Below, in pieces: positions 1,089 to 14,181 of a stretch of 64,000 bases of DNA. Where the stretch lies: assembly GCF_000299415.1 (NCBI RefSeq), contig NZ_AMPG01000002.1:558001-622000 (forward strand), in the 5' to 3' direction. Numbering within the stretch: position 1 is the stretch's first letter; every line of letters begins with the position of its first letter. The notes beneath the pieces are model-generated. The model ran no database searches, had not been told where the DNA came from, and worked only from the letters and a program-made list of their open reading frames with translations. The position numbers and the translations under genes are program-made. Source of the stretch: Candidatus Microthrix parvicella Bio17-1. Lineage in GTDB: Bacteria; Actinomycetota; Acidimicrobiia; Acidimicrobiales; Microtrichaceae.

Positions 1089-2606
1089 ATGGGTGCCTCG
1101 ATCAACTCGGCGACCGGGCCGCTCGGCTTGGCGGTGGACCGCTTTTGCGGCAACGTCACCACCGCCCTGGTCGAGGTCACCCACTCGGTGGGCAACACGT
1201 CAGATGCGTCCAACGTGGCCAACATCGCTTCCGATGGAGACCTGGCGGGCGACGTGTCGGTCGAGGCCTACCGCATCGCCTGCGCCTTCATCGACAGCGA
1301 CGGCCGCCATTCCGACGACGAGCTGTGGCCGCTTATCGGCGTCTTCGGCGGCCGCTTCGACACCCAACTGGCGGGCGCCACCCCCGCCAAGGTGCGCGAG
1401 ACCGACCTGCTGCGGGGCGCCCGGCGCTGGCTCGACCGGCCCAGCGACCTGTTCGAGATCCTGCTCGGCGCCGACCGTCTCGACGGTGGCGAACGGGCGC
1501 TCGGGTACTACCGGGACGCCATGGCCATCGCCCACACAGTGGTGGATCTGGACATCATCTGCACCGAGGGCGAGTTGGCTGCGCTCGATGCCTTCCGCAA
1601 CCGCCTGCTGGGACGAATCGGGACGGTCGGTCCGGGCAACCATGCCACCCGGGCGAACCGCATCGCCACCGACGCTCCCGACGTCGACGCGCCCTCCACC
1701 AACGCTTCCGCCACACCCGCGTCCGACGCACAAACCGCCACGGAGGCCGCGCCCGATGTCCACGAGCCCGAGCCGCTGCCGCCGCCTCGCCCCCTCGAGG
1801 AGTTGATGGCCGAGCTGGACGGCCTGATCGGGTTGGCCGAGGTGAAGGCCGAGGTGCGGCGCCTCACCGACCTCATCCGGGTGGGCCGGATGCGGGCCGA
1901 GGTTGACCTTCCGGTCGCCGACCGTTCGAACCACCTGGTGTTCACGGGTAATCCCGGCACCGGCAAGACCACGGTCGCCCGGCTGCTGGCCCAGATCTAC
2001 CGCACCCTCGGGGTGGTCGAACGGGGGCACCTGGTCGAGGTGGACCGCACCTCCCTGGTGGCCGGGTTCGTCGGCCAGACCGCCCCCCTGGTCACCAAGC
2101 GCTTCGACGAGGCCGACGAGGGCATGTTGTTCATCGACGAGGCCTACTCGCTGATCCGAGGCTCGGAGAGCGACTTCGGGCGGGAGGCCGTCGACACGCT
2201 GGTGAAGCTGGTGGAAGACCGCCGCGATCGAGTCGTCGTCGTGGTCGCCGGGTACCCCGACGAGATGACGGCGTTCCTCGACGTCAATCCGGGACTGCGC
2301 TCTCGATTCCCGCGCACGGTCTTCTTTCCCGACTATTCCACTCAGGACCTGCTGGCGATCTTCGACCTGCTGGCCGACAAGAACGGCTACGAGCTGGCCG
2401 ACGACGCTCGGGCCCGCCTCACCGAGGTGCTCGATGCGGTGCCTCGCGAGGAGGGCTTCGGCAACGGGCGCCTGGCTCGAAACCTGCTGGAGGAGACGAT
2501 GGCGTGTCAGGCCAGCCGAGTGGTCGCCCTCGACGGCCCCACCCGCGACGACCTGGCCCTGCTCACCGCCGCCGACATCCCGGCCACGGCCCCCGGCCAC
2601 CGATAA
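1089..2606 (+). CDS. AAA+ ATPase, EccA/CbbX-like, with TerB-like N-domain
   Basis: This 505-residue protein has a C-terminal CbbX/SpoVK-type AAA+ domain (about 235-490). Walker A GNPGTGKT is at 287-294, Walker B MLFIDEA at 346-352, and an arginine-finger segment PGLRSRFP follows. The N-terminal 180 residues contain an acidic repeated helical pattern (ACAFIDSDGRHSDDELWPL and CTEGELAALDAFRNRLL) resembling TerB-like domains rather than the TPR domain of EccA. A Pro/Ala-rich linker (about 188-232) joins them. EccA-type ATPases serve type VII secretion; a WXG100 pair lies 56 kb away, so a link is only inferred. It starts three bases after the toxin stop. Confidence 0.8.
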   Translation: MGASINSATGPLGLAVDRFCGNVTTALVEVTHSVGNTSDASNVANIASDGDLAGDVSVEAYRIACAFIDSDGRHSDDELWPLIGVFGGRFDTQLAGATPAKVRETDLLRGARRWLDRPSDLFEILLGADRLDGGERALGYYRDAMAIAHTVVDLDIICTEGELAALDAFRNRLLGRIGTVGPGNHATRANRIATDAPDVDAPSTNASATPASDAQTATEAAPDVHEPEPLPPPRPLEELMAELDGLIGLAEVKAEVRRLTDLIRVGRMRAEVDLPVADRSNHLVFTGNPGTGKTTVARLLAQIYRTLGVVERGHLVEVDRTSLVAGFVGQTAPLVTKRFDEADEGMLFIDEAYSLIRGSESDFGREAVDTLVKLVEDRRDRVVVVVAGYPDEMTAFLDVNPGLRSRFPRTVFFPDYSTQDLLAIFDLLADKNGYELADDARARLTEVLDAVPREEGFGNGRLARNLLEETMACQASRVVALDGPTRDDLALLTAADIPATAPGHR

Positions 2607-2887: not shown

Positions 2888-3256
2888 ATGAGCGCCAGGG
2901 TGTGGACCCGCAGGGCGTACGAGGAGCCGACGCACAACGATGGCTATCGGGTCCTGGTCGACCGACTGTGGCCTCGCGGCGTGTCCAAGGACCACCTGCA
3001 GATCGACGAGTGGTGCAAGGAGATCGCACCGACCAACGAGCTGCGCAAGTGGTTTGGGCACGACCCGGAGCGGTGGGATGAGTTCGCCGAGCGGTACCGA
3101 ACCGAACTCTGCGATCACGAAGACCTGGTAACCGCCCTGGTCGAGCGCACCGAGGATGGCCGGGTCACGCTTGTCTACGGCGCAAAGGACACCGAGCACA
3201 ATCAGGCGGTGGTTCTGGCTCAGGTGCTTGAAGACCGGCGCTTGGCGACCGCCTGA
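2888..3256 (+). CDS. DUF488 family protein (YeaO-like)
   Basis: This 122-residue protein matches the short DUF488 family. It shows the N-terminal RVWTRRAYEEPTHNDGYRVL strand, the signature DRLWPRGVSKD, then EWCKEIAPTNELRKWFGH and a C-terminal VTLVYGAKDTEHNQAVVL. The family is widespread, often induced by stress or associated with heavy-metal or uracil-containing substrates in the literature, but no activity is settled. Length equals the family norm, so it appears intact. It stands alone between the remnant above and the envelope block downstream. Confidence 0.85.
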   Translation: MSARVWTRRAYEEPTHNDGYRVLVDRLWPRGVSKDHLQIDEWCKEIAPTNELRKWFGHDPERWDEFAERYRTELCDHEDLVTALVERTEDGRVTLVYGAKDTEHNQAVVLAQVLEDRRLATA

Positions 3257-3323: not shown

Positions 3324-4304
3324 GTGATGGCACGCATTCTGGCCCTGGTGGCCGCAGTTGGGTTGGTCGCCGGTGCGGTGGTGCTGCGCGGTGCCATCGA
3401 CGGGCGCGGCGATGGGCCGAGTGCCGAACCTTCGCTCGGGGTCCTGTGGTGCGATCCGCTCCTGGCCGATGCCTGTGCGGCTGCCGCCGACGGGGCTGAA
3501 GTGAAGCTGATCGAACCCGGTGACGCCTTCGACCGGCTGAGCGACCTCAACTCCAAGGATGACCCGCCCGCCCTGTGGGTCACCGCCGGGGACTGGTCTT
3601 CAATGCTGGCCGTCGCCAACCCAAACACCGAGGTCCCGACCTTTGGGACGCCTGCGCAGGTGGCCTCCACCCCGCTGGTCGTGGCGGCCAAGGGTGACAA
3701 CCTCAAGCTGCTCGATGTTGCATGTCCCAAGACGGTGACCTGGAACTGCCTGGCGGATGCCACCGGGAAGGACGCGACGGATCTCGGAGGGGCGGCGCCG
3801 CTGGGCGAGTTTCGCCTCGGCCACGTGGTGCCGCCGTCCTCGGCCGGGCTGGTCACCCTCGCCGGTCTCGCAGGCACCATCCCCGCTGACGATGCACCGC
3901 CCGACCGAGACGACGTCACCTCTCAGGCCTTTGGCGGCTTGCTCGGCCGGATCGACTCCGGCGAGCTGGGTGTCTCCTCCAGCTCAGCGGTCAAGAAGTT
4001 CACGACAACGCCGGGAGCGGCCTCGGTGCTGATTGCGCCCGAGGCCGAGATCACCGGTCCGGCCACAGCCCGCGGCTACGAGGTCCGTCCGGTACAACCC
4101 GTTGTCAACCTCACCGCGCAGGTGTCCGCAAGGACGACTTCACCCAACGACGACGCCCAGCCACCGTCGGCCGAGGCTGTGACCGACTTCACCGATCGTC
4201 TCGGCACCGGTTTGACCACCGCCGGGTGGGAGCCACCCAGCGACGCGGACCCGACCGACCCGGGGCTTCTGGCCGCGCTGCTGGAAAGTTGGAACGCCCA
4301 ATGA
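3324..4304 (+). CDS. Exported solute-binding-like protein of unknown ligand
   Basis: This 326-residue protein has a hydrophobic N-terminal segment (ILALVAAVGLVAGAVVLRG), then a soluble domain with features of periplasmic-binding folds: PPALWVTAGDWSSML, TPLVVAAKGDNLKLL and a C-terminal helix ending LLESWNAQ. It lacks an obvious lipobox cysteine, so it may be membrane-tethered by the first helix. GTG at 3324 or ATG at 3327 can start it; a TAGCCT box lies at 3309-3314. It is followed 37 bases later by a VWA/solute-binding lipoprotein with which it may share ancestry of the binding domain. Family uncertain. Confidence 0.6.
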   Translation: MMARILALVAAVGLVAGAVVLRGAIDGRGDGPSAEPSLGVLWCDPLLADACAAAADGAEVKLIEPGDAFDRLSDLNSKDDPPALWVTAGDWSSMLAVANPNTEVPTFGTPAQVASTPLVVAAKGDNLKLLDVACPKTVTWNCLADATGKDATDLGGAAPLGEFRLGHVVPPSSAGLVTLAGLAGTIPADDAPPDRDDVTSQAFGGLLGRIDSGELGVSSSSAVKKFTTTPGAASVLIAPEAEITGPATARGYEVRPVQPVVNLTAQVSARTTSPNDDAQPPSAEAVTDFTDRLGTGLTTAGWEPPSDADPTDPGLLAALLESWNAQ

Positions 4305-4341
4305 GCCGGCGGAGCCAAGCACCGACCATCACCTGGAGACT

Positions 4342-6183
4342 TTGATGACCCAAGATCGCGCCACCCGACGCTTCCCCACCCAGCGACGCCAAGGCACCAC
4401 CCGAGCCGGGGTTGCGCTTTTGGCCGTGGCCCTTCTGACGGGTGCCTGCGGGGGCGGTGGCGGTGGCGAACAGGCCGCCGAGGATGACAACTGCACCAAG
4501 GTGCCGGCCGCGGTCAGTTCAGAGAAGATCGACCTGATGAAGGAGTTGGCCGAGGATTTCAATCGCGCCTGGGACGGCCAGGGATGCGTTCGGGTGGAAC
4601 CCGAGTCGGTGTCCTCCGGCCGTGCGGCCACGGCGCTGGCCGATGGCTGGAACTCGGCCGAGATGGGCACGGAGCCCGTGCTCTGGTCGCCGGCGTCCAG
4701 CAGTTGGGGCGCCATCACAAACCAGCGTTCCAGCGATGGCGGCAACAAGTTCACCGTGCCGAACGATCCACCAACCTTCATGCTGACCCCCCTGGTGATC
4801 GCCATGCCACAACCAATGGCTGATGCGCTCGGCTACCCGGAGAAGCCGGTGGGCTGGAAAGACCTGCTGGCGCTGTCCACCGAGACCGATGCATGGGCGA
4901 AGCGGGGTCACCCTGAGTGGGGACAGTTCAAGCTGGGCAAGACCAACCCCAACTACTCCACCTCCGGCCTGTCGGCACTTGTGGCCCAGAATTACGCGGC
5001 CGCCGGGGCGAAAGACAACCTGCCGGTCGAACAACTGAAAGCCAAGAAGGTCGTTGACTTCAACAAGGGCATCGAGTCGTCGGTGGTGCACTACGGCGAC
5101 ATCACGATGACGTTTCTCAACAACTGGTTTCGGGCCGACCGGCGCGACACGGCGCTCACCTACGCCTCCGCCGTCGCCGTCGAGGAGAAGTCGGTGATCG
5201 ACTACAACTCGGGTAATCCCGATGGCGTACTCGACCCCGGGGAGAAGCCCCGCAAACCTCGGATCCCTTTGGTGTCGATCTATCCAACCGAGGGCACGCT
5301 GTACTCCGACAACCCGCTGTACGTCGTGAGCGGGACCCAGGCTCAGAAGGATGCCGCCGACAAGTTCATCAAGTTCCTCCAGGAGCCGACCAACCAGAAG
5401 AAGGTGCTGGCGTTCGGCTTCCGTCCGGGCAACCCCGAGGTGCCGGTTGGTAACCCGATCGTGGCCAAGAACGGGGTGGATCCCGATCAGCCGGCCACCA
5501 CCTTGCCCGTGCCCGACCCGAAGGTGCTCGACGCAATCCTGAACGCCTGGGACACCCAACGAAAAGGTGCCCGGGTGCTGATGATGCTCGACGTCTCCGG
5601 TTCGATGAGCGAGCCGGCCACCGCCGGCGACCCGGGCGGCCCCACCAAGCTTGACCTGGCCAAGCAGGCGGCCAGCACGGCGTTGGACGAGTTCAAGGCC
5701 GACGACGAGGTGGGGCTGCGAACCTTCACCACCGACGAGAACACCGGCCAACCGGTGTACGACGACCTGGTGGAGATCAAGGAACTGGGCGCCAACGCCG
5801 AAGGCCTCCGCACCGCGCTCCGGGAGCTCAGGCCCCGCAACGGCACCCCACTTTTTGGAGCCGCCGAGCAGGCGTTCGACGAGATCAAGAGCGGTTATGA
5901 CCCGACGCGCATCAACGCTGTGATCCTCTTGACCGACGGCATCAACGAAGACGGTGATCCCGCTGACGACGACGCTCAGTTCAAGGCTCTGACCAACAAA
6001 CTGCGTGCCGGTAGCGAAGGTGAAGCGGCGACACCCGTCCGCATGTTCACCATCGCCTACGGTGAGGGGGCCTCGACCGGTCAACTTTCGGCGATCGCCG
6101 AGGCATCCGACGCGGCGGCGTACGACTCGAGCGATCCGGATGCGATCGATCGGGTGTTCACCGCAGTCGTGTCCAACTTCTGA
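4342..6183 (+). CDS. Lipoprotein with solute-binding domain plus VWA domain
   Basis: This 613-residue protein starts with a signal peptide and lipobox (LLTGAC, then a Gly-rich linker). Residues about 50-400 form an extracellular solute-binding domain (KIDLMKELAEDFNRAW, LVIAMPQPMADALGYPEKP, LYVVSGTQAQKDAADKFI). Residues about 410-613 form a von Willebrand factor A domain with an intact MIDAS motif, DVSGS at 417-421, followed by the conserved TPLFGA and LLTDG strands. VWA domains bind protein ligands through a metal ion. TTG 4342 or ATG 4345 are possible starts. A fused receptor of this type on the outer face of the membrane, followed by a coiled-coil membrane protein, suggests a sensing or assembly role; none is established here. 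Confidence 0.8.
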   Translation: MMTQDRATRRFPTQRRQGTTRAGVALLAVALLTGACGGGGGGEQAAEDDNCTKVPAAVSSEKIDLMKELAEDFNRAWDGQGCVRVEPESVSSGRAATALADGWNSAEMGTEPVLWSPASSSWGAITNQRSSDGGNKFTVPNDPPTFMLTPLVIAMPQPMADALGYPEKPVGWKDLLALSTETDAWAKRGHPEWGQFKLGKTNPNYSTSGLSALVAQNYAAAGAKDNLPVEQLKAKKVVDFNKGIESSVVHYGDITMTFLNNWFRADRRDTALTYASAVAVEEKSVIDYNSGNPDGVLDPGEKPRKPRIPLVSIYPTEGTLYSDNPLYVVSGTQAQKDAADKFIKFLQEPTNQKKVLAFGFRPGNPEVPVGNPIVAKNGVDPDQPATTLPVPDPKVLDAILNAWDTQRKGARVLMMLDVSGSMSEPATAGDPGGPTKLDLAKQAASTALDEFKADDEVGLRTFTTDENTGQPVYDDLVEIKELGANAEGLRTALRELRPRNGTPLFGAAEQAFDEIKSGYDPTRINAVILLTDGINEDGDPADDDAQFKALTNKLRAGSEGEAATPVRMFTIAYGEGASTGQLSAIAEASDAAAYDSSDPDAIDRVFTAVVSNF

Positions 6184-6230
6184 CCCCGATCGTCCCAGCC
6201 GGCCTGGGAGAAGGCAACGCTCACGACGCC

Positions 6231-7088
6231 ATGAGTTTCCGTGACCGCTTCTACACGCCCCAGGTGGCTCGGGCGATGACCGGCCCGGCCGGCATCGTGG
6301 CGGGCGGTGTCGGCGCGGCGGTCGGTGTTCTCACCGGGCTGGGGCCGATCGGCGCCGTGGTGGGCGCAATTGCGGCCTGGGTGATTCGCGTGGGCGTGGC
6401 CGTCCCCCGCCCCGAGCGGGGCTCGACGACCCGGATCGATGCGTTTGCGTTGAACGAGCCGTGGAAGCGCCTGGTTCGTGACGCCCAGCAGGCGGAACAG
6501 AACTTCCAACGAGCGTTGCACGGTACCCCCCAAGGTCCCCTGCGAGATCGATTGGGCGAGATTCGTGCCCACCTCAATGAGGGCGTGGCCGAGGTCTGGG
6601 AAATTGCCAAGTCGGGCAACGCCGTCGGCATGGGACGCGCGCAGATCAACCGACCGGCAGTCGAGGGCGAGTTGGCCGAGACACGTCGGCTACGCGCTGC
6701 GGCAGACTCCCCCAGCCTTGCGGCCACCGAAGAGGCTCTGCTGATGCAGTTGGCCACCGCTGACCGCATGGAAGCGACGCTCACCGAATCAGAGAGCCGC
6801 CTGCGACTTCTCAACGCCCGGTTGGACGAGGCGGTCACCAGGGCCATCGAGTTGTCGGTCAGCCAGGCCGACTCCACTGCCGCAGGCTCGCTGCGCGCCG
6901 ACGTGGCGGGCATCGTGGACGAGATGGAGGCCCTCCGCCAGGCGATGGTGGAGGTCCGGGCATCCGACGCCACGGTCCCCAAGGCACTCCCGGACCTCCC
7001 ACCCCCGGTCTCCCAAACCCAACCGCCCCAAACCCAACCGCCCCAAACCCAACCGCCCCAAACCGGACAAACCGGGGAGGGCACGTGA
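6231..7088 (+). CDS. Membrane-anchored coiled-coil protein with Pro-rich tail
   Basis: This 285-residue protein of unrecognised family has a glycine-rich hydrophobic N-terminal hairpin (about residues 16-57, GIVAGGVGAAVGVLTGLGP then IGAVVGAIAAWVI). A long helical, coiled-coil-rich region follows to about residue 245. The tail contains three copies of the pentapeptide QTQPP (DNA repeat 7012-7064). Its stop overlaps the GTG proposed for murJ, so the genes are co-expressed. The layout, with a membrane hairpin, coiled coil and proline tail, fits a scaffold tied to the VWA lipoprotein upstream and the envelope genes downstream, but this is inference. Confidence 0.65.
   Translation: MSFRDRFYTPQVARAMTGPAGIVAGGVGAAVGVLTGLGPIGAVVGAIAAWVIRVGVAVPRPERGSTTRIDAFALNEPWKRLVRDAQQAEQNFQRALHGTPQGPLRDRLGEIRAHLNEGVAEVWEIAKSGNAVGMGRAQINRPAVEGELAETRRLRAAADSPSLAATEEALLMQLATADRMEATLTESESRLRLLNARLDEAVTRAIELSVSQADSTAAGSLRADVAGIVDEMEALRQAMVEVRASDATVPKALPDLPPPVSQTQPPQTQPPQTQPPQTGQTGEGT
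7012..7064 (+). repeat. 15-bp in-frame tandem repeat, 3.5 copies
   Basis: The unit CCCAAACCCAACCGC occurs at 7012-7026, 7027-7041 and 7042-7056, with a partial fourth copy to 7064. Because the unit is 15 bases, copy-number change would add or remove QTQPP pentapeptides at the C-terminus of the coiled-coil protein without a frameshift. Confidence 0.95.
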
Positions 7089-9214
7089 CCACCACCGTGC
7101 CGGGGCAAGCAGCATCGCCACGCACCGACGGTCAGGCGGCAGGTCGACGGACGCGCACCTGGGTGCACGCGAAGGACTCACCAACCGGGTGCCGCTACCT
7201 CGTGCCGCCCCCGCTGGTGGCTGGGGTCGACTGGGTTCCCTCGGGACTGGTTCGCTTTGCAGGACGCGAGCGCGCCGACCGTCAACGGGTGGCCAGCGTC
7301 ACCCACACGGGTGCCTCGCCGGTGGTGTCCCCGCCGATACCCATGCCTCATCCGGAAATGATCGGCCCGGTGGGAGTGCCCGGCGAGATCGGGTCCGAGG
7401 GCGCATCGATGAACGACGTGATCCTCGTCGAAGACGACGGCCCCGCCTTCAGCGATGACTCCGGCGGCAACCAGGACGCGGCGCGTGCCAATGAACCGGT
7501 GGGGGTGCCCGTCGAGGACGACCCGGAGATGGTGGCCGCAGGCGAAAAGGACCTGGTGCGGGCGGCAGCCAACCCGGCGTTGGGCACCGTGTTGTCGCGC
7601 GTCACCGGCGTGCTCCGCTGGGGCGCCATGGCGTATGCCCTGGGCCGCACTGGGCTCGCCGACGCCTACGGCATCGCCAACAACACCCCCAACATCATCT
7701 ACGAGCTGGTGGTGGGCGGCGTGTTGTCCTCCACCCTGGTACCGCTGTTCGTCAACACCCGTCGTCGCACCCGCCGAGGCGAGTTCGATGACGGCGCATC
7801 CGCGATCATCACCGTGTCGTCGCTGGCGCTGCTGGTGCTTTCGGTCGTAGGCGTGTTGGCGGCGCCCTGGGTGGCCAAGGCCTACACCCTGGGCTTGGAG
7901 CCGGGTGCCCGGGCCGCCCAGCTGGAACTGACCGTGCCGCTGATGCGGCTGTTCCTTCCTCAGATCTTCCTCTATGGCATCGTCAGCCTGGCCACGGCGG
8001 TGCTGCACAGCCAGCACAAGCTGTCGATCCCCGCCTACACCCCGATCGCCAACAACCTCGTGGTCACGGTCATGTTCGTGGCCGCCCGCCCGTTGGTGCA
8101 ACGGGTGAGTGAGGGGTCCGGCTCACTGAATGCCCTCCTGCTGGTCCTGGGCATCGGCACCACCCTGGGTGTGGTCGCGCAAGCCTTGCCGCTGATCCCG
8201 CCCATGCGCGACGGCGTGGTGCGGCTGCGCTGGAACCTCGCTCCCACCCACCCGGTGGTCAAGCGCCTGATCCGGCTGTCCGGTTGGACCATGGGCTACG
8301 TGGTGGCAAACCAGGTCTCGCTCTACGTGGTGACCAACCTGGCCAACTCGGGGCCCGAAGGCACGGTGGCCACCTACCAATATGCGTTTGCGTTCTTTCA
8401 ATTGCCCCATGGGCTGATCGCAGTGAGCCTGATGACCGCCGTCCTACCCCGTCTGGCCACCTCGTTCGTCGATGGCGATTTGACCTCCTACCGCGCCAAC
8501 TTTCGCGAGGGTCTCAACGTGTTGTTCACGGTGGTACTGGCCGCCGCAGCGGGTTACGTCGTCGTGGCCCAACTGCTGATCCAAGTGGTGTTTCAACGCG
8601 GCGCCTTCAGCGCGTCGGGCACCGACGAGACCGCCCGCACCCTCATCGCCTTCGCCGTCGGGTTGCCGGCGTTCTCCACCTACCTGTACGCCATTCGGGC
8701 GTTTCACGCCCGCCAGAACACCCGCACCCCGTTCTGGATCAACGTGGGCGAAAACGGGCTCAACATCGTGCTGGCGGTGCTGCTCACCACCCGCACCGCC
8801 TCCGGGCTGGCGGTTGCGTTCAGCGGGGCGTATCTCATCGCTGCGGTCATCAGCGTGCTGGTGCTCAACTTCCAGGTGCGGGACCTGCTCGACCGCAGTC
8901 TGTTCACCATGATGGGCAAGGCGACCGTGGCCGCTGTGGCCACCGTGGCAGGCGCCCTGATCCCCACGCTGCCACCGTTGTCGGCGCTGGACTGGGCGCC
9001 CGCTCAGCTGATCCTGCGCGTGGTGTTTGGGGCGGTCGCGTTCGTCCTGGCGGTCGCCCTGCTGCGCATCGAGGGCCTGGACCGCTACGTGTCGGTGCTT
9101 CGGCGCAAGATCGGGCCGTTCGTACCGAGTGCCGTCGAGCGGTTGCTGGCGCGGACCACCCCTTCAACCCCTGGAGCCTCGGGTAAGCCGGACCAACCGG
9201 ATGGCACCGCCTGA
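7085..9214 (+). CDS. murJ: MurJ, lipid II flippase
   Basis: This MOP-superfamily membrane protein moves lipid II across the cytoplasmic membrane for peptidoglycan synthesis. The conserved core starts near residue 155 (LVRAAANPALGTVLSRVTGV) and contains about 14 transmembrane segments with motifs LADAYGIANNTPNIIYEL and VLSSTLVPLF. The frame opens at GTG 7085, overlapping the previous stop, giving 709 residues. That adds a low-complexity N-terminal extension of about 150 residues absent from ordinary MurJ proteins (about 520-550 residues). An internal ATG at 7409 (MNDVILVEDDG) is an alternative start, leaving an acidic 45-residue extension. The C-terminus is Pro/Ser-rich. Confidence 0.88.
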   Translation: MTTTVPGQAASPRTDGQAAGRRTRTWVHAKDSPTGCRYLVPPPLVAGVDWVPSGLVRFAGRERADRQRVASVTHTGASPVVSPPIPMPHPEMIGPVGVPGEIGSEGASMNDVILVEDDGPAFSDDSGGNQDAARANEPVGVPVEDDPEMVAAGEKDLVRAAANPALGTVLSRVTGVLRWGAMAYALGRTGLADAYGIANNTPNIIYELVVGGVLSSTLVPLFVNTRRRTRRGEFDDGASAIITVSSLALLVLSVVGVLAAPWVAKAYTLGLEPGARAAQLELTVPLMRLFLPQIFLYGIVSLATAVLHSQHKLSIPAYTPIANNLVVTVMFVAARPLVQRVSEGSGSLNALLLVLGIGTTLGVVAQALPLIPPMRDGVVRLRWNLAPTHPVVKRLIRLSGWTMGYVVANQVSLYVVTNLANSGPEGTVATYQYAFAFFQLPHGLIAVSLMTAVLPRLATSFVDGDLTSYRANFREGLNVLFTVVLAAAAGYVVVAQLLIQVVFQRGAFSASGTDETARTLIAFAVGLPAFSTYLYAIRAFHARQNTRTPFWINVGENGLNIVLAVLLTTRTASGLAVAFSGAYLIAAVISVLVLNFQVRDLLDRSLFTMMGKATVAAVATVAGALIPTLPPLSALDWAPAQLILRVVFGAVAFVLAVALLRIEGLDRYVSVLRRKIGPFVPSAVERLLARTTPSTPGASGKPDQPDGTA

Positions 9215-9223
9215 GCCAGGCTC

Positions 9224-9229
9224 TATGCT
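9224..9229 (+). promoter_or_regulatory. -10 element of pspA
   Basis: TATGCT ends seven bases before the GTG at 9237, the spacing expected for a leaderless mRNA. No -35 box is obvious. Confidence 0.5.
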
Positions 9230-9236
9230 CGTCGTC

Positions 9237-10079
9237 GTGTTCAAATCGATCAAGCGCTTCTGGAAGTATCTGACCACCAAGCTGAACATGAGCTTCGATG
9301 CGAATGCTGACCCCAAGGTCCAGCTGGAGCAGGCGATCACCGAGTCTCAGCAGCAACACAAGATGCTGGTGGAGCAGGCGGCGACGGTCGTCGCCAACCA
9401 GAAGCAGACCGAGATGCGCCTTGACACCCGCATGGACGACCTCGAAAAGCTGACAGCCAACGCCCGCCAGGCGGTGCTGATGGCCGATGAGGCCACCCGC
9501 TCGGGCGATACCGCCAAGGCGACCGAGATGACCTCGGCCGCAGAGGCGTTCGCCAACCGACTGATTGCGATCGAGGCCGAGATCGAGCAGCTCAAAGGCA
9601 TGCACCTGCAGGCCACCCAGGCCTCCGATCAGGCCAAGGCCGCCGTGGCACAGAACAGCTCGAAGCTTCAAAAGAAGCTGGCCGAGAAGCAGCAGCTGCT
9701 CAGCCAGCTCGACCAGGCCAAGATGCAGGAATCCATGAACAACGCCATGACCAGCCTGTCGGCCACGGTCGGCGACGACGTGCCCACCTTGGATCAGGTT
9801 CGGGAGAAGATCGAGGGGCGATACGCCAAGGCTCAGGGCGTGTCGGAGCTCCAGGGCCAGTCGGTCGAGTCGAAAATGCTCGAGGTGGAGCAGGCCACCC
9901 GGAACGTGGAGGCCCAGGCTCGGCTTTCCAAGATTCGCAGTCAGTTGGGGCTCGACACCGGTACTGCCGACGCATCCGCGGTCGAAGCGGCACCCGCAGC
10001 CCAGCCCGACGCAGCCCAGCCCTCAGCCACCCAGCCCGATGCTCCCGACACAGGCGAGGCCCAGCCTTCCGCCGGGTAA
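9237..10079 (+). CDS. pspA: PspA/IM30 family membrane-stress protein
   Basis: This 280-residue protein is an ESCRT-III-like PspA/IM30 homologue. It has a short amphipathic N-terminal helix (FKSIKRFWKYLTTKLNMSF), then nearly unbroken coiled coil to about residue 235 (QLEQAITESQQQHKMLVEQA, QNSSKLQKKLAEKQQLLSQL). Family members bind stressed membranes and form rods or spirals. The C-terminus after about residue 240 is a disordered Ala/Pro/Gln tail. GTG 9237 is preferred over ATG 9225 because a TATGCT box would place the transcript start near it and because PspA proteins begin directly with the amphipathic helix. It follows murJ by 22 bases. Confidence 0.82.
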   Translation: MFKSIKRFWKYLTTKLNMSFDANADPKVQLEQAITESQQQHKMLVEQAATVVANQKQTEMRLDTRMDDLEKLTANARQAVLMADEATRSGDTAKATEMTSAAEAFANRLIAIEAEIEQLKGMHLQATQASDQAKAAVAQNSSKLQKKLAEKQQLLSQLDQAKMQESMNNAMTSLSATVGDDVPTLDQVREKIEGRYAKAQGVSELQGQSVESKMLEVEQATRNVEAQARLSKIRSQLGLDTGTADASAVEAAPAAQPDAAQPSATQPDAPDTGEAQPSAG

Positions 10080-12633: not shown

Positions 12634-14181
12634 ATGCCACCACCGACGGCCCCAGGCGGACGTTTCGTGACTCCACCCACCACCTCCACCAGTGACTCCC
12701 CGGTGCGCCCCGCAACCAACGAGGTGGACGTCGACGGTCCCCTTCCGCAGCCCACGGAGCCCACACGTGAGGCCGACGATCTGCCCGCCTCCGACGGCGA
12801 TCCGATCTCCGAGCCGAACAACCCAACGCCCCACAGGCGGCGCATCCCGGCGCTGGTCGCAAGCGTGGTGCTGATCATCGGTGGGGTGGTGGCCATTCGT
12901 GCCTACACCGAGCGGGTTCAAGCCCAGCGCAACGCCGAGGCCAAGCTTGCCACCGCCAGGGACACGATGGCCGAGATGCAGCGACAGACCGCCGAGCTCC
13001 AGGCGGCAGACGCCGAGCTGCGCCAAACCACCGAGGACGCACGCACCACCTCGAAACTGGCCGAGGCCGACTCGGCCGAAGCCCGGGCGGCCCTCGGAGC
13101 GCTGGAGGAGCAACGCCAGGCCCTCCAGCAGCAGATGGTGGCAGCCGACAGCGGCCGCGGCCTCCAAGCCCTGTACAACGGGCGGATGAAGACCTGCATT
13201 GACGGCCTCAACCGGGCGGTCAACCAGATCTCGGTTGGCGATGCTTCGGGCGGCGCCTCCACCCTCGGCACCGTTCAGGACGACTGTGCCGCGGCAGAGG
13301 CCGCCGGACCATCCGCGATGCCCTACGACTTCCCCGACCCGTTCGTGCTCATCGATGGCGCCACCTCCTACGCATATGCGACCAACGCGGGTGGCGGCAA
13401 CGTGCAACTGGCCACCAGCACCGACCAAAAGACTTGGAGGTTCGTCGGTAACGCGCTTCCCAAGCTTCCGAACTGGGTGGAACCCAGTGCCACCTGGGCT
13501 CCTGCGGTGGTCAAGCTGAACGGCAACTACGTCCTCTACTACTCGGCCCGCAAAAAGGGCCAGAACATGCAGTGCGTCTCGGTGGCGGTGGCCAAGACCC
13601 CCAAGGGGCCCTTCGTCGACAGCTCCACCGGGCCGCTCGTTTGTCAGGAGGACCAGGGTGGCAGCATCGACCCCAGCCCGTTCGTCGACCTCGACGGAAC
13701 GCCGTACCTGCTGTACAAGTCCGAGGGCACCCCGGTGGGTCGCTCCGGCGCGCTGTGGAGCCAACAGCTCAACCCGCAGGGCACCGGGTTTGCCGGTTTC
13801 CCCACCCTGTTGCTGACCGGCGACCCGGGTGGCTGGGATCACGGGGTGATCGAGGGACCATCGATGTACCGCGATCAGGAGGGGCGGCTGTGGATGTTCT
13901 ACTCCGGTGCCGGATGGAGTAGCGACCAGTACGCCGTCGGCATCGCCGGCTGCCCAAACGGGCCTGCCCAACCATGCGCACGGGCCAACGCCAAACCCAT
14001 CCTGAAGACCAACGATCGGGTGGTGGGGCCCGGCGGGCTCGAAGCATTCCGGGAAGCCGACGGCACCCCCAAGGTGGTGTTCCACGCCTACCAGCCGGGC
14101 AAGGTGGGCTACCCGAACAACCGGGTGCTGGTGATCGGCACCCTCAAGTTGGACCACGACAGCGTCTCCCTGGATTACTGA
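12634..14181 (+). CDS. Membrane-anchored GH43-like glycoside hydrolase
   Basis: The 515-residue protein has a 70-residue cytoplasmic Pro/Thr/Asp-rich N-terminus, one transmembrane helix (about 74-91, LVASVVLIIGGVVAIRAY), an extracellular coiled coil (about 95-175) and a five-bladed beta-propeller domain (about 225-515). The three acids of GH43 catalysis are all visible: D235 in FPDPFV, D346 in SIDPSPFVDLDG and E407 in VIEGPS. GH43 enzymes cleave arabinose- or xylose-containing glycans. A role in remodelling the organism's own surface polymer is inferred from the membrane anchor. ATG 12634 is the first in-frame start after the -10 box. Confidence 0.82.
   Translation: MPPPTAPGGRFVTPPTTSTSDSPVRPATNEVDVDGPLPQPTEPTREADDLPASDGDPISEPNNPTPHRRRIPALVASVVLIIGGVVAIRAYTERVQAQRNAEAKLATARDTMAEMQRQTAELQAADAELRQTTEDARTTSKLAEADSAEARAALGALEEQRQALQQQMVAADSGRGLQALYNGRMKTCIDGLNRAVNQISVGDASGGASTLGTVQDDCAAAEAAGPSAMPYDFPDPFVLIDGATSYAYATNAGGGNVQLATSTDQKTWRFVGNALPKLPNWVEPSATWAPAVVKLNGNYVLYYSARKKGQNMQCVSVAVAKTPKGPFVDSSTGPLVCQEDQGGSIDPSPFVDLDGTPYLLYKSEGTPVGRSGALWSQQLNPQGTGFAGFPTLLLTGDPGGWDHGVIEGPSMYRDQEGRLWMFYSGAGWSSDQYAVGIAGCPNGPAQPCARANAKPILKTNDRVVGPGGLEAFREADGTPKVVFHAYQPGKVGYPNNRVLVIGTLKLDHDSVSLDY

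Follow-up and report, generated by a model that had tools for sequence, protein, structure and literature searches.

A conserved gene cluster around PspA in Candidatus Microthrix parvicella: a possible actinobacterial envelope-stress operon with its own sensor and AAA+ ATPase

Gene content and layout of the cluster

The window analysed here comprises 64,000 nucleotides of the genome of Candidatus Microthrix parvicella Bio17-1 (contig NZ_AMPG01000002.1, positions 558,001 to 622,000), in which five plus-strand genes between positions 3324 and 10079 code for a solute-binding-like protein (SBP1), a solute-binding lipoprotein fused to a von Willebrand factor A domain (SBP-VWA), a coiled-coil membrane protein (CC), the lipid II flippase MurJ and PspA. 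An earlier interpretation of this DNA (the sequence-only reading) had described gaps or overlaps of less than 50 bases, and the spacing is confirmed: gaps of 37 and 47 bases separate SBP1 from SBP-VWA and SBP-VWA from CC, CC and MurJ overlap by 4 bases, and MurJ and PspA lie about 10 bases apart. The boundaries drawn in that reading were, however, too tight, as they left out a AAA+ ATPase gene upstream; the conserved unit consists of the AAA+ ATPase, SBP1, SBP-VWA, CC, in some of the loci MurJ, and PspA (Table 1). The DUF488 gene inside the unit in this genome is probably a passenger, and a single-sequence profile did not find it in the other loci among the 124 mapped. As stated previously, no ABC permease is present, and neither a permease nor an ABC ATPase occurs among the cluster genes (AAA, DUF488, SBP1, SBP-VWA, CC, MurJ and PspA).

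Table 1. Features of the cluster, in window coordinates
Feature	Position	Strand	Evidence
AAA+ ATPase, CbbX/SpoVK/EccA kind	1089-2606	+	PF00004 8e-17; AAA_lid_6 2.1e-17
DUF488 protein	2888-3256	+	PF22752 2e-42
SBP1, exported, N-terminally anchored, solute-binding-like	3324-4304	+	Alignment of 17; hhalign to SBP-VWA
SBP-VWA lipoprotein, solute-binding domain then VWA	4342-6183	+	Pfam; alignment of 22
CC, membrane hairpin and helical bundle	6231-7088	+	Alignment, structure model, co-occurrence
CC predicted two-helix membrane hairpin, residues 19-57	6285-6401	+	Low-confidence part of model; hydrophobic in alignment
MurJ lipid II flippase, start uncertain (GTG 7085 or ATG 7409)	7085-9214	+	TIGR01695, tree
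PspA/IM30	9225-10079	+	PspA_IM30 domain

Conservation of gene order and co-occurrence

Each cluster gene was used as a profile, by which 124 loci were mapped, some of them representing the same contigs fetched twice. The counts of named loci refer to the best 80 of 213, a set that is not independent of the 41 relatives searched by profile as whole genomes, as several contigs are common to both. The gene caller was crude, and neighbours scored as absent may have been missed. The order AAA-SBP1-SBP-VWA-CC-(MurJ)-PspA recurs across families of the taxonomic order to which the window belongs and in families f51, f58 and f65 of the phylum. The AAA, SBP1, SBP-VWA, CC and PspA genes all stand on one strand in 47 of the 80 loci, 31 of which also contain MurJ (all six genes) and 16 of which do not, while the remaining 33 loci either run off a contig end or deviate from this arrangement. 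The recurrence of this order in dozens of loci places the cluster beyond chance. The AAA stop codon overlaps the SBP1 start in 10 of 17 loci, with start codons chosen by the analysts, which makes the AAA gene a member of the operon; CC and MurJ overlap in the same manner in 10 of 15. The genes are thus mostly clustered rather than scattered, both in the mapped loci and in the relatives.

Whole-genome searches of the 41 relatives gave a similar picture. PspA is found in 36, CC in 33, the N-terminal domain of the AAA protein in 28 and SBP-VWA in 24 relatives, while 24 genomes place MurJ no more than 2 kb from PspA. The PspA count includes one relative below the cut-off (G025), and that of CC takes in fragments and weak matches (G002, 30 residues; G013, at a contig edge; G032, E 5.6e-5). 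The SBP-VWA count, from a raw tally of 26, excludes the weak single-domain matches of G027 and G035 and keeps the broken copies of G023 and G024, and G014 is scored AAA-negative though part of an AAA gene stands at the contig end of its locus. The five relatives that lack PspA all lack CC, AAA and SBP-VWA too. Given as both/first only/second only/neither, with Fisher p-values that ignore kinship, the associations are 33/3/0/5 for PspA and CC (p 7e-5), 28/8/0/5 for PspA and AAA (p 0.002) and 23/5/1/12 for AAA and SBP-VWA (p 9e-6). CC is the most frequent PspA neighbour among the genes tested, standing less than 4 kb from it in 30 of the 33 CC-bearing relatives; the others are G015 and G023, where the two lie on different contigs, and G032. 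By frequency, CC and PspA form the core of the unit, followed by AAA and then by the SBP pair and MurJ, which are its variable parts. SBP-VWA, CC and PspA also stand together without a detected AAA gene in remote families (L198 and L193, with CC-like matches of 91.2% and 99.8%, respectively).

Several variants and neighbours were noted in passing. Loci L159 and L161 contain two CC genes per cluster, one ahead of SBP1 and one after SBP-VWA, and PspA is on the opposite strand in L161, a rearranged variant from Desertimonas flava. An Acidimicrobiia-type cluster (56% identity) occurs on a contig titled as a Bifidobacterium breve metagenome-assembled genome (L097), a label that is probably wrong. 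In the window, the cluster is flanked by a MazF/PemK-type toxin gene (PF02452; 705-1085), which stops 3 bases before the AAA start, and downstream, on the opposite strand, by proB and obg, named by eye; proB-obg adjoins the cluster in many loci of the same taxonomic order. Further along, 12634-14181 codes for what appears by eye to be a protein in which a coiled coil bearing a membrane segment is joined to a glycoside-hydrolase-like domain.

The exported solute-binding-like proteins

SBP-VWA, named in NCBI as a 'substrate-binding and VWA domain-containing protein', matches the Pfam families SBP_bac_11 (4.4e-18) and VWA_2 (3.5e-11), with ATG 4345 as an alternative start. Its lipobox cysteine (C36; 4447-4449) and its metal-ion-dependent adhesion site (MIDAS) motif DVSGSM (5590-5607) are invariant in all 22 aligned homologues, in which LGKTNPN and VVHYGD are invariant or nearly so. 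SBP1 alone has no Pfam match, while hhalign pairs its family profile with the solute-binding domain of SBP-VWA (probability 96.3%, E 1.7e-9), and its cysteines C43, C51, C134 and C142 are invariant in 17 of 17 aligned sequences. The description of two exported solute-binding-like proteins, one of them fused to a VWA domain with an intact MIDAS, is thereby upheld.

The AAA+ ATPase and PspA

The P-loop (GNPGTGKT) and Walker B motif (MLFIDEAY) of the AAA+ protein read as intact in the sequence. It scores 215.7, 271.6 and 231.2 bits against the NCBIfam models of CbbX, SpoVK and EccA, reaching none of the equivalog cut-offs (459.25, 422.95 and 466.65), and on sequence it is assigned to the wider CbbX/SpoVK/EccA clade only. 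Its N-terminal domain (about residues 7-178) belongs to no recognised family and is all-helical, with nine helices in a model of pLDDT 91.9; the best VIA-align match, BopN (Z 5.6), was taken as a generic helical one. Two identities for this domain were tried and are not claimed here. A Vps4 MIT domain has weak PDB matches only and no clear fold match, while a TerB-like domain, proposed by eye from paired DG..E motifs, found neither a Pfam TerB match in 14 members nor a clear fold match. Separately, a TerB-domain match of 48.4 bits was recorded in the same genome in L213 (G000:C2:82624-82956), though TelA is absent there.

The cluster PspA contains a PspA_IM30 domain (5.6e-29; 101.8 bits against a cut-off of 33.9) and is the sole copy found in the genome, which is 95% complete. 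Aligned with one ClgR-PspM-type PspA, from an operon recognised by eye, it shows 48% identity across 258 columns. No helix-turn-helix (ClgR) gene was identified in the cluster or in the genes that flank it, MazF/PemK and, by eye, proB-obg, the region that this comparison covered.

The CC protein and its similarity to PspM

The CC model (mean pLDDT 83) consists of the low-confidence hairpin listed in Table 1 and a confident helical bundle at residues 78-247. All Pfam matches are sub-threshold, Foldseek gives no match to the model at E <=0.001, and the best VIA-align match, a designed helical protein (Z 14.3), was taken as generic. The membrane coiled-coil character that the sequence-only reading assigned to CC agrees with this prediction, while the QTQPP tail that it pointed out is not conserved in the alignment.

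Over the C-terminal 75 columns, CC aligns with the PspM profile at E 1.9e-4 (hhalign); the score of 36.9 exceeds the maximum of 26.1 among 40 column-block shuffles and the 23.7 obtained with reversed columns. The PspM profile consists of 8 rows, chosen by eye from the position after PspA and a ClgR-like gene, and has no match in the Microthrix genome itself. PspM is found in 10 clear genomes of 296 (13 in the raw tally, from which G098, G234 and G263 were left out) and CC in 20 of 296, presumed to be the same set, with no genome common to both. Nine of the PspM genomes come from one family and one from another, so that the separation follows lineage. On this sequence similarity, CC is possibly a distant relative of PspM.

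MurJ as a variable member

The MurJ protein matches PF03023 (2e-82) and TIGR01695 (304.5 bits against a cut-off of 235.55). The unusual N-terminal extension that had been ascribed to it does correspond to an open frame, which from GTG 7085 places 162 residues ahead of the conserved core. It is nevertheless doubtful, given that codons 7085-7411 have a second-position GC content of 0.63, against 0.39-0.56 in seven other stretches measured, and that the space from the CC end to the MurJ core would fit 12-91 residues in 13 of the 14 relatives measured and 195 in the remaining one (a cut relative, L036, gave no value).

The Microthrix genome contains two MurJ genes. In a midpoint-rooted tree of 49 rows, 29 operon and 7 non-operon copies group together, apart from a 13-member paralogue group, and six or more of the 7 non-operon copies come from relatives whose cluster lacks MurJ. 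In G028, G031 and G039 the neighbours of the non-operon orthologue, read by eye, include a protein kinase and a thioredoxin reductase (trxB), along with a sigma factor in G028 and a thioredoxin and a ParB-like gene in G039. The kinase and thioredoxin reductase neighbourhood is the place of murJ/mviN in other Actinobacteria. As the operon and kinase-trxB copies are orthologous, the same murJ has changed place, and movement into the operon would be the simpler direction. The second MurJ of the Microthrix genome (L298:8581-10236) is a long-branched member of the paralogue group, with pyrG, SteA/SteB-like genes, recN, nadK and tlyA as neighbours by eye.

The sequence-only reading had connected the system to peptidoglycan supply. 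Among the 80 loci, 52 clusters contain CC together with PspA; MurJ is present in 32 of these, and in none of the ten clusters of f51, f58 and f65. With MurJ lacking from so many clusters, a dedicated link is not supported as stated and would be at best lineage-specific. The same distribution bears on the explanation that the cluster serves wall assembly or scaffolding instead of sensing, in which the solute-binding proteins would bind peptidoglycan or lipid-linked intermediates on the outer side, CC would form a bridge across the membrane, PspA and AAA would shape the membrane at growth sites and MurJ would supply lipid II. That MurJ adjoins PspA as often as SBP-VWA is present at all, and that the operon copy is the orthologue of the MurJ standing elsewhere in relatives, would fit such a role, as would the 32 clusters themselves. 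It is at odds with the other 20 clusters, and with G002, G004 and G030, which keep MurJ and PspA together without SBP-VWA. The homologous SBP pair of Variovorax and Sphaerotilus, described below, occurs with TelA, and the 6 kb around it contain no gene annotated for wall functions. Wall assembly is considered unlikely.

The SBP pair outside the cluster and outside the phylum

On plasmids of Variovorax sp. SRS16 (three records matched, of which one was opened) and Sphaerotilus, an SBP1-like protein and TelA precede SBP-VWA, which is followed by a small helical membrane protein. Deinococcus contains the same arrangement of SBP1, SBP-VWA and small membrane helical protein without TelA. Profiles of two or three sequences from these taxa match SBP1 at 96.6% over 322 columns and SBP-VWA at 99.8%, while the small membrane protein of the TelA-type loci shows no detectable homology to CC (4.4%, likewise with a profile of two or three sequences). 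In Miltoncostaea (Thermoleophilia), the gene after SBP-VWA is a CC relative (96.1%), and the corresponding gene on a Streptomyces plasmid gives a 70% match to CC across 51 columns.

These loci raise the alternative of a TelA/Ter-type resistance to toxic compounds, with PspA in the place of TelA, the solute-binding proteins binding an oxyanion or antimicrobial and the inner helical proteins forming a protective submembrane layer. The homology of both binding proteins and the shared arrangement around TelA argue for it, and a submembrane role has been proposed for TelA in passages of PMC7824862. Only two plasmid loci, however, place TelA next to SBP-VWA, and their small membrane protein is not recognisably CC. 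TelA (PF05816) and PF10112 are found in none of the 41 relatives, own genome included. This explanation is judged improbable. CC itself was considered as a TelA or XpaC protein and rejected on the same absence of both families, two TelA proteins matching it at <=0.5% (hhalign).

Under a third explanation, the binding proteins serve ordinary solute uptake or are orphans that stand beside PspA by chance, and the AAA protein is a general chaperone. In other Actinobacteria, a number of SBP-VWA homologues lack any cluster partner alongside, and a divergent actinobacterial homologue (L205) has an apparent ABC ATPase and permease, by eye, about 1.2 kb upstream, which counts against the non-transport role proposed in the sequence-only reading. 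Pairing of SBP-VWA with an ABC transporter is not general, however, as no permease is listed within 6 kb in seven annotated plasmid loci, the tables of which are incomplete. Candidatus Thiodictyon has pstS about 5.5 kb from SBP-VWA. Ordinary ABC transport is rejected for the cluster because it contains no permease; the conserved order, the stop-start overlaps and the joint absence of AAA, CC and SBP-VWA from the five PspA-less relatives likewise make this third explanation very unlikely. On the Candidatus Thiodictyon plasmid (L320:5857-9191), an SBP-VWA-type gene is followed by a second gene that the SBP-VWA profile matches weakly and that is annotated as substrate-binding, next to a further uncharacterised protein.

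A possible envelope-stress operon

Taken together, the data point tentatively, and at somewhat short of even confidence, to an actinobacterial envelope-stress operon built on PspA, a member of the ESCRT-III superfamily, that would have a sensor outside the cell and a AAA+ ATPase of its own. The lipoprotein SBP-VWA and its companion SBP1 would lie at the membrane's outer face, where they would bind a small ligand or envelope intermediate together with a divalent metal, as the intact MIDAS suggests. Binding would be relayed to the membrane protein CC, which may tether or release PspA at the inner face, in the manner supposed for PspM in mycobacteria. PspA would polymerise on damaged membrane, and the AAA+ protein may recognise PspA or CC via its helical N-domain and dismantle the polymer for reuse. 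In lineages with murJ in the operon, lipid II export might also be tied to membrane stress. The linkage of the genes and the kinds of protein that they encode are shown by the data, whereas the direction of signalling, the ligand, the contact with PspA and the ATP-driven disassembly are the steps that we infer here. Of the surface sensing or assembly system suggested earlier, the conserved envelope system with exported binding-like parts and tight linkage to PspA stands, while the part given to MurJ does not stand as stated.

A number of observations weigh against the envelope-stress reading. The sensor is separable, as G008 carries the unit in two, with SBP1-SBP-VWA-CC at one site and AAA, a second CC, MurJ and PspA beside proB-obg at another. 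SBP1-SBP-VWA-CC stands without nearby AAA or PspA in some loci (e.g. L138, L145, L153 and L158), and the SBP-VWA homologues that have no partner alongside belong here too. Conversely, three genomes of family f7 (G030, G149 and G188, the last with a weak SBP1 match at the locus) keep AAA-CC-MurJ-PspA, and G285 (f19) keeps CC-MurJ-PspA, without SBP-VWA, while G038 and G040, of the same taxonomic order as the window, have PspA without AAA, CC or SBP-VWA. The AAA N-domain matches no known fold (no Foldseek match at E <=0.001), its profile matches in PDB to CdvC/Vps4 (E 0.06) and 2v6y (E 0.56) are weak and non-significant, and the similarity of CC to PspM has a probability of just 47.5% over its 75 columns. 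According to passages of PMC11746142, Synechocystis PspA has a weak ATP hydrolysis of its own and can remodel membranes in the absence of a AAA partner (PspF), which speaks against a need for a AAA+ recycler.

A bolder form of this reading, in which the AAA+ protein would be a dedicated PspA-disassembling ATPase, the functional counterpart of Vps4, and the SBP pair a portable sensor serving PspA in Actinobacteria and TelA in further phyla, is put forward as speculation that is more probably wrong than right by a wide measure. If true, PspA and TelA would be interchangeable effectors of one sensor family, and an ESCRT-III machine would possess an extracellular ligand gate.

Comparison with known systems

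The cluster had been put forward as an undescribed system. No description of it as a system was found in the open-licence literature, supplements aside, though its parts and a similar operon of PspA, AAA and a binding protein are already in print. The main text of PMC11237479, supplements aside, has no mention of von Willebrand/vwf, MurJ, flippase, CbbX, substrate-binding or Acidimicrob. Among the systems in that survey of PspA contexts, which also describes AAA+ partners, the mycobacterial ClgR-PspA-PspM-PspN operon shares the type of PspA, a membrane partner beside it and possibly, through CC and PspM, a distant homology, whereas AAA+, SBP1, SBP-VWA and MurJ stand here in place of ClgR and PspN (PMC11237479). 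A PspA/Snf7 operon with a AAA+ ATPase, an ABC transporter and a solute- and peptidoglycan-binding PBPB-OmpA protein likewise joins a PspA-type protein to a AAA+ ATPase and to a solute-binding protein on the outside, but has an ABC permease and OmpA where the Microthrix cluster has a VWA fusion, two solute-binding proteins, CC and no permease (PMC11237479).

The TelA-type plasmid loci of Variovorax and Sphaerotilus resemble the cluster in their SBP1-like and SBP-VWA homologues and in a small helical membrane protein, and differ in having TelA instead of PspA and AAA and a membrane protein that is not recognisably CC. The envelope-stress reading would give a role to the SBP-VWA proteins, which have so far been named in databases by their domains only, and it offers a possible connection of PspA with TelA; both are implicated in protecting membranes and have so far been treated apart.

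AAA proteins of the MoxR/CbbQ type pair with a VWA co-chaperone. A jumbo-phage case of this pairing is described in PMC7824862, and the present cluster resembles such pairs in that one operon carries both a AAA gene and a VWA gene. A MoxR-VWA chaperone pair was nevertheless rejected for the cluster because its VWA protein is exported as a lipoprotein, with the invariant lipobox cysteine, which puts AAA and VWA on opposite sides of the membrane; no MoxR family is among the AAA matches. The likeness to ESCRT-III and Vps4 lies in an ESCRT-III superfamily protein encoded beside a AAA+ ATPase, the difference in a AAA protein that belongs to the CbbX/SpoVK clade and has no clear MIT match. As this AAA+ gene accompanies PspA through a sizeable group of Actinobacteria, the question of whether the two proteins act together can be addressed with two purified proteins.

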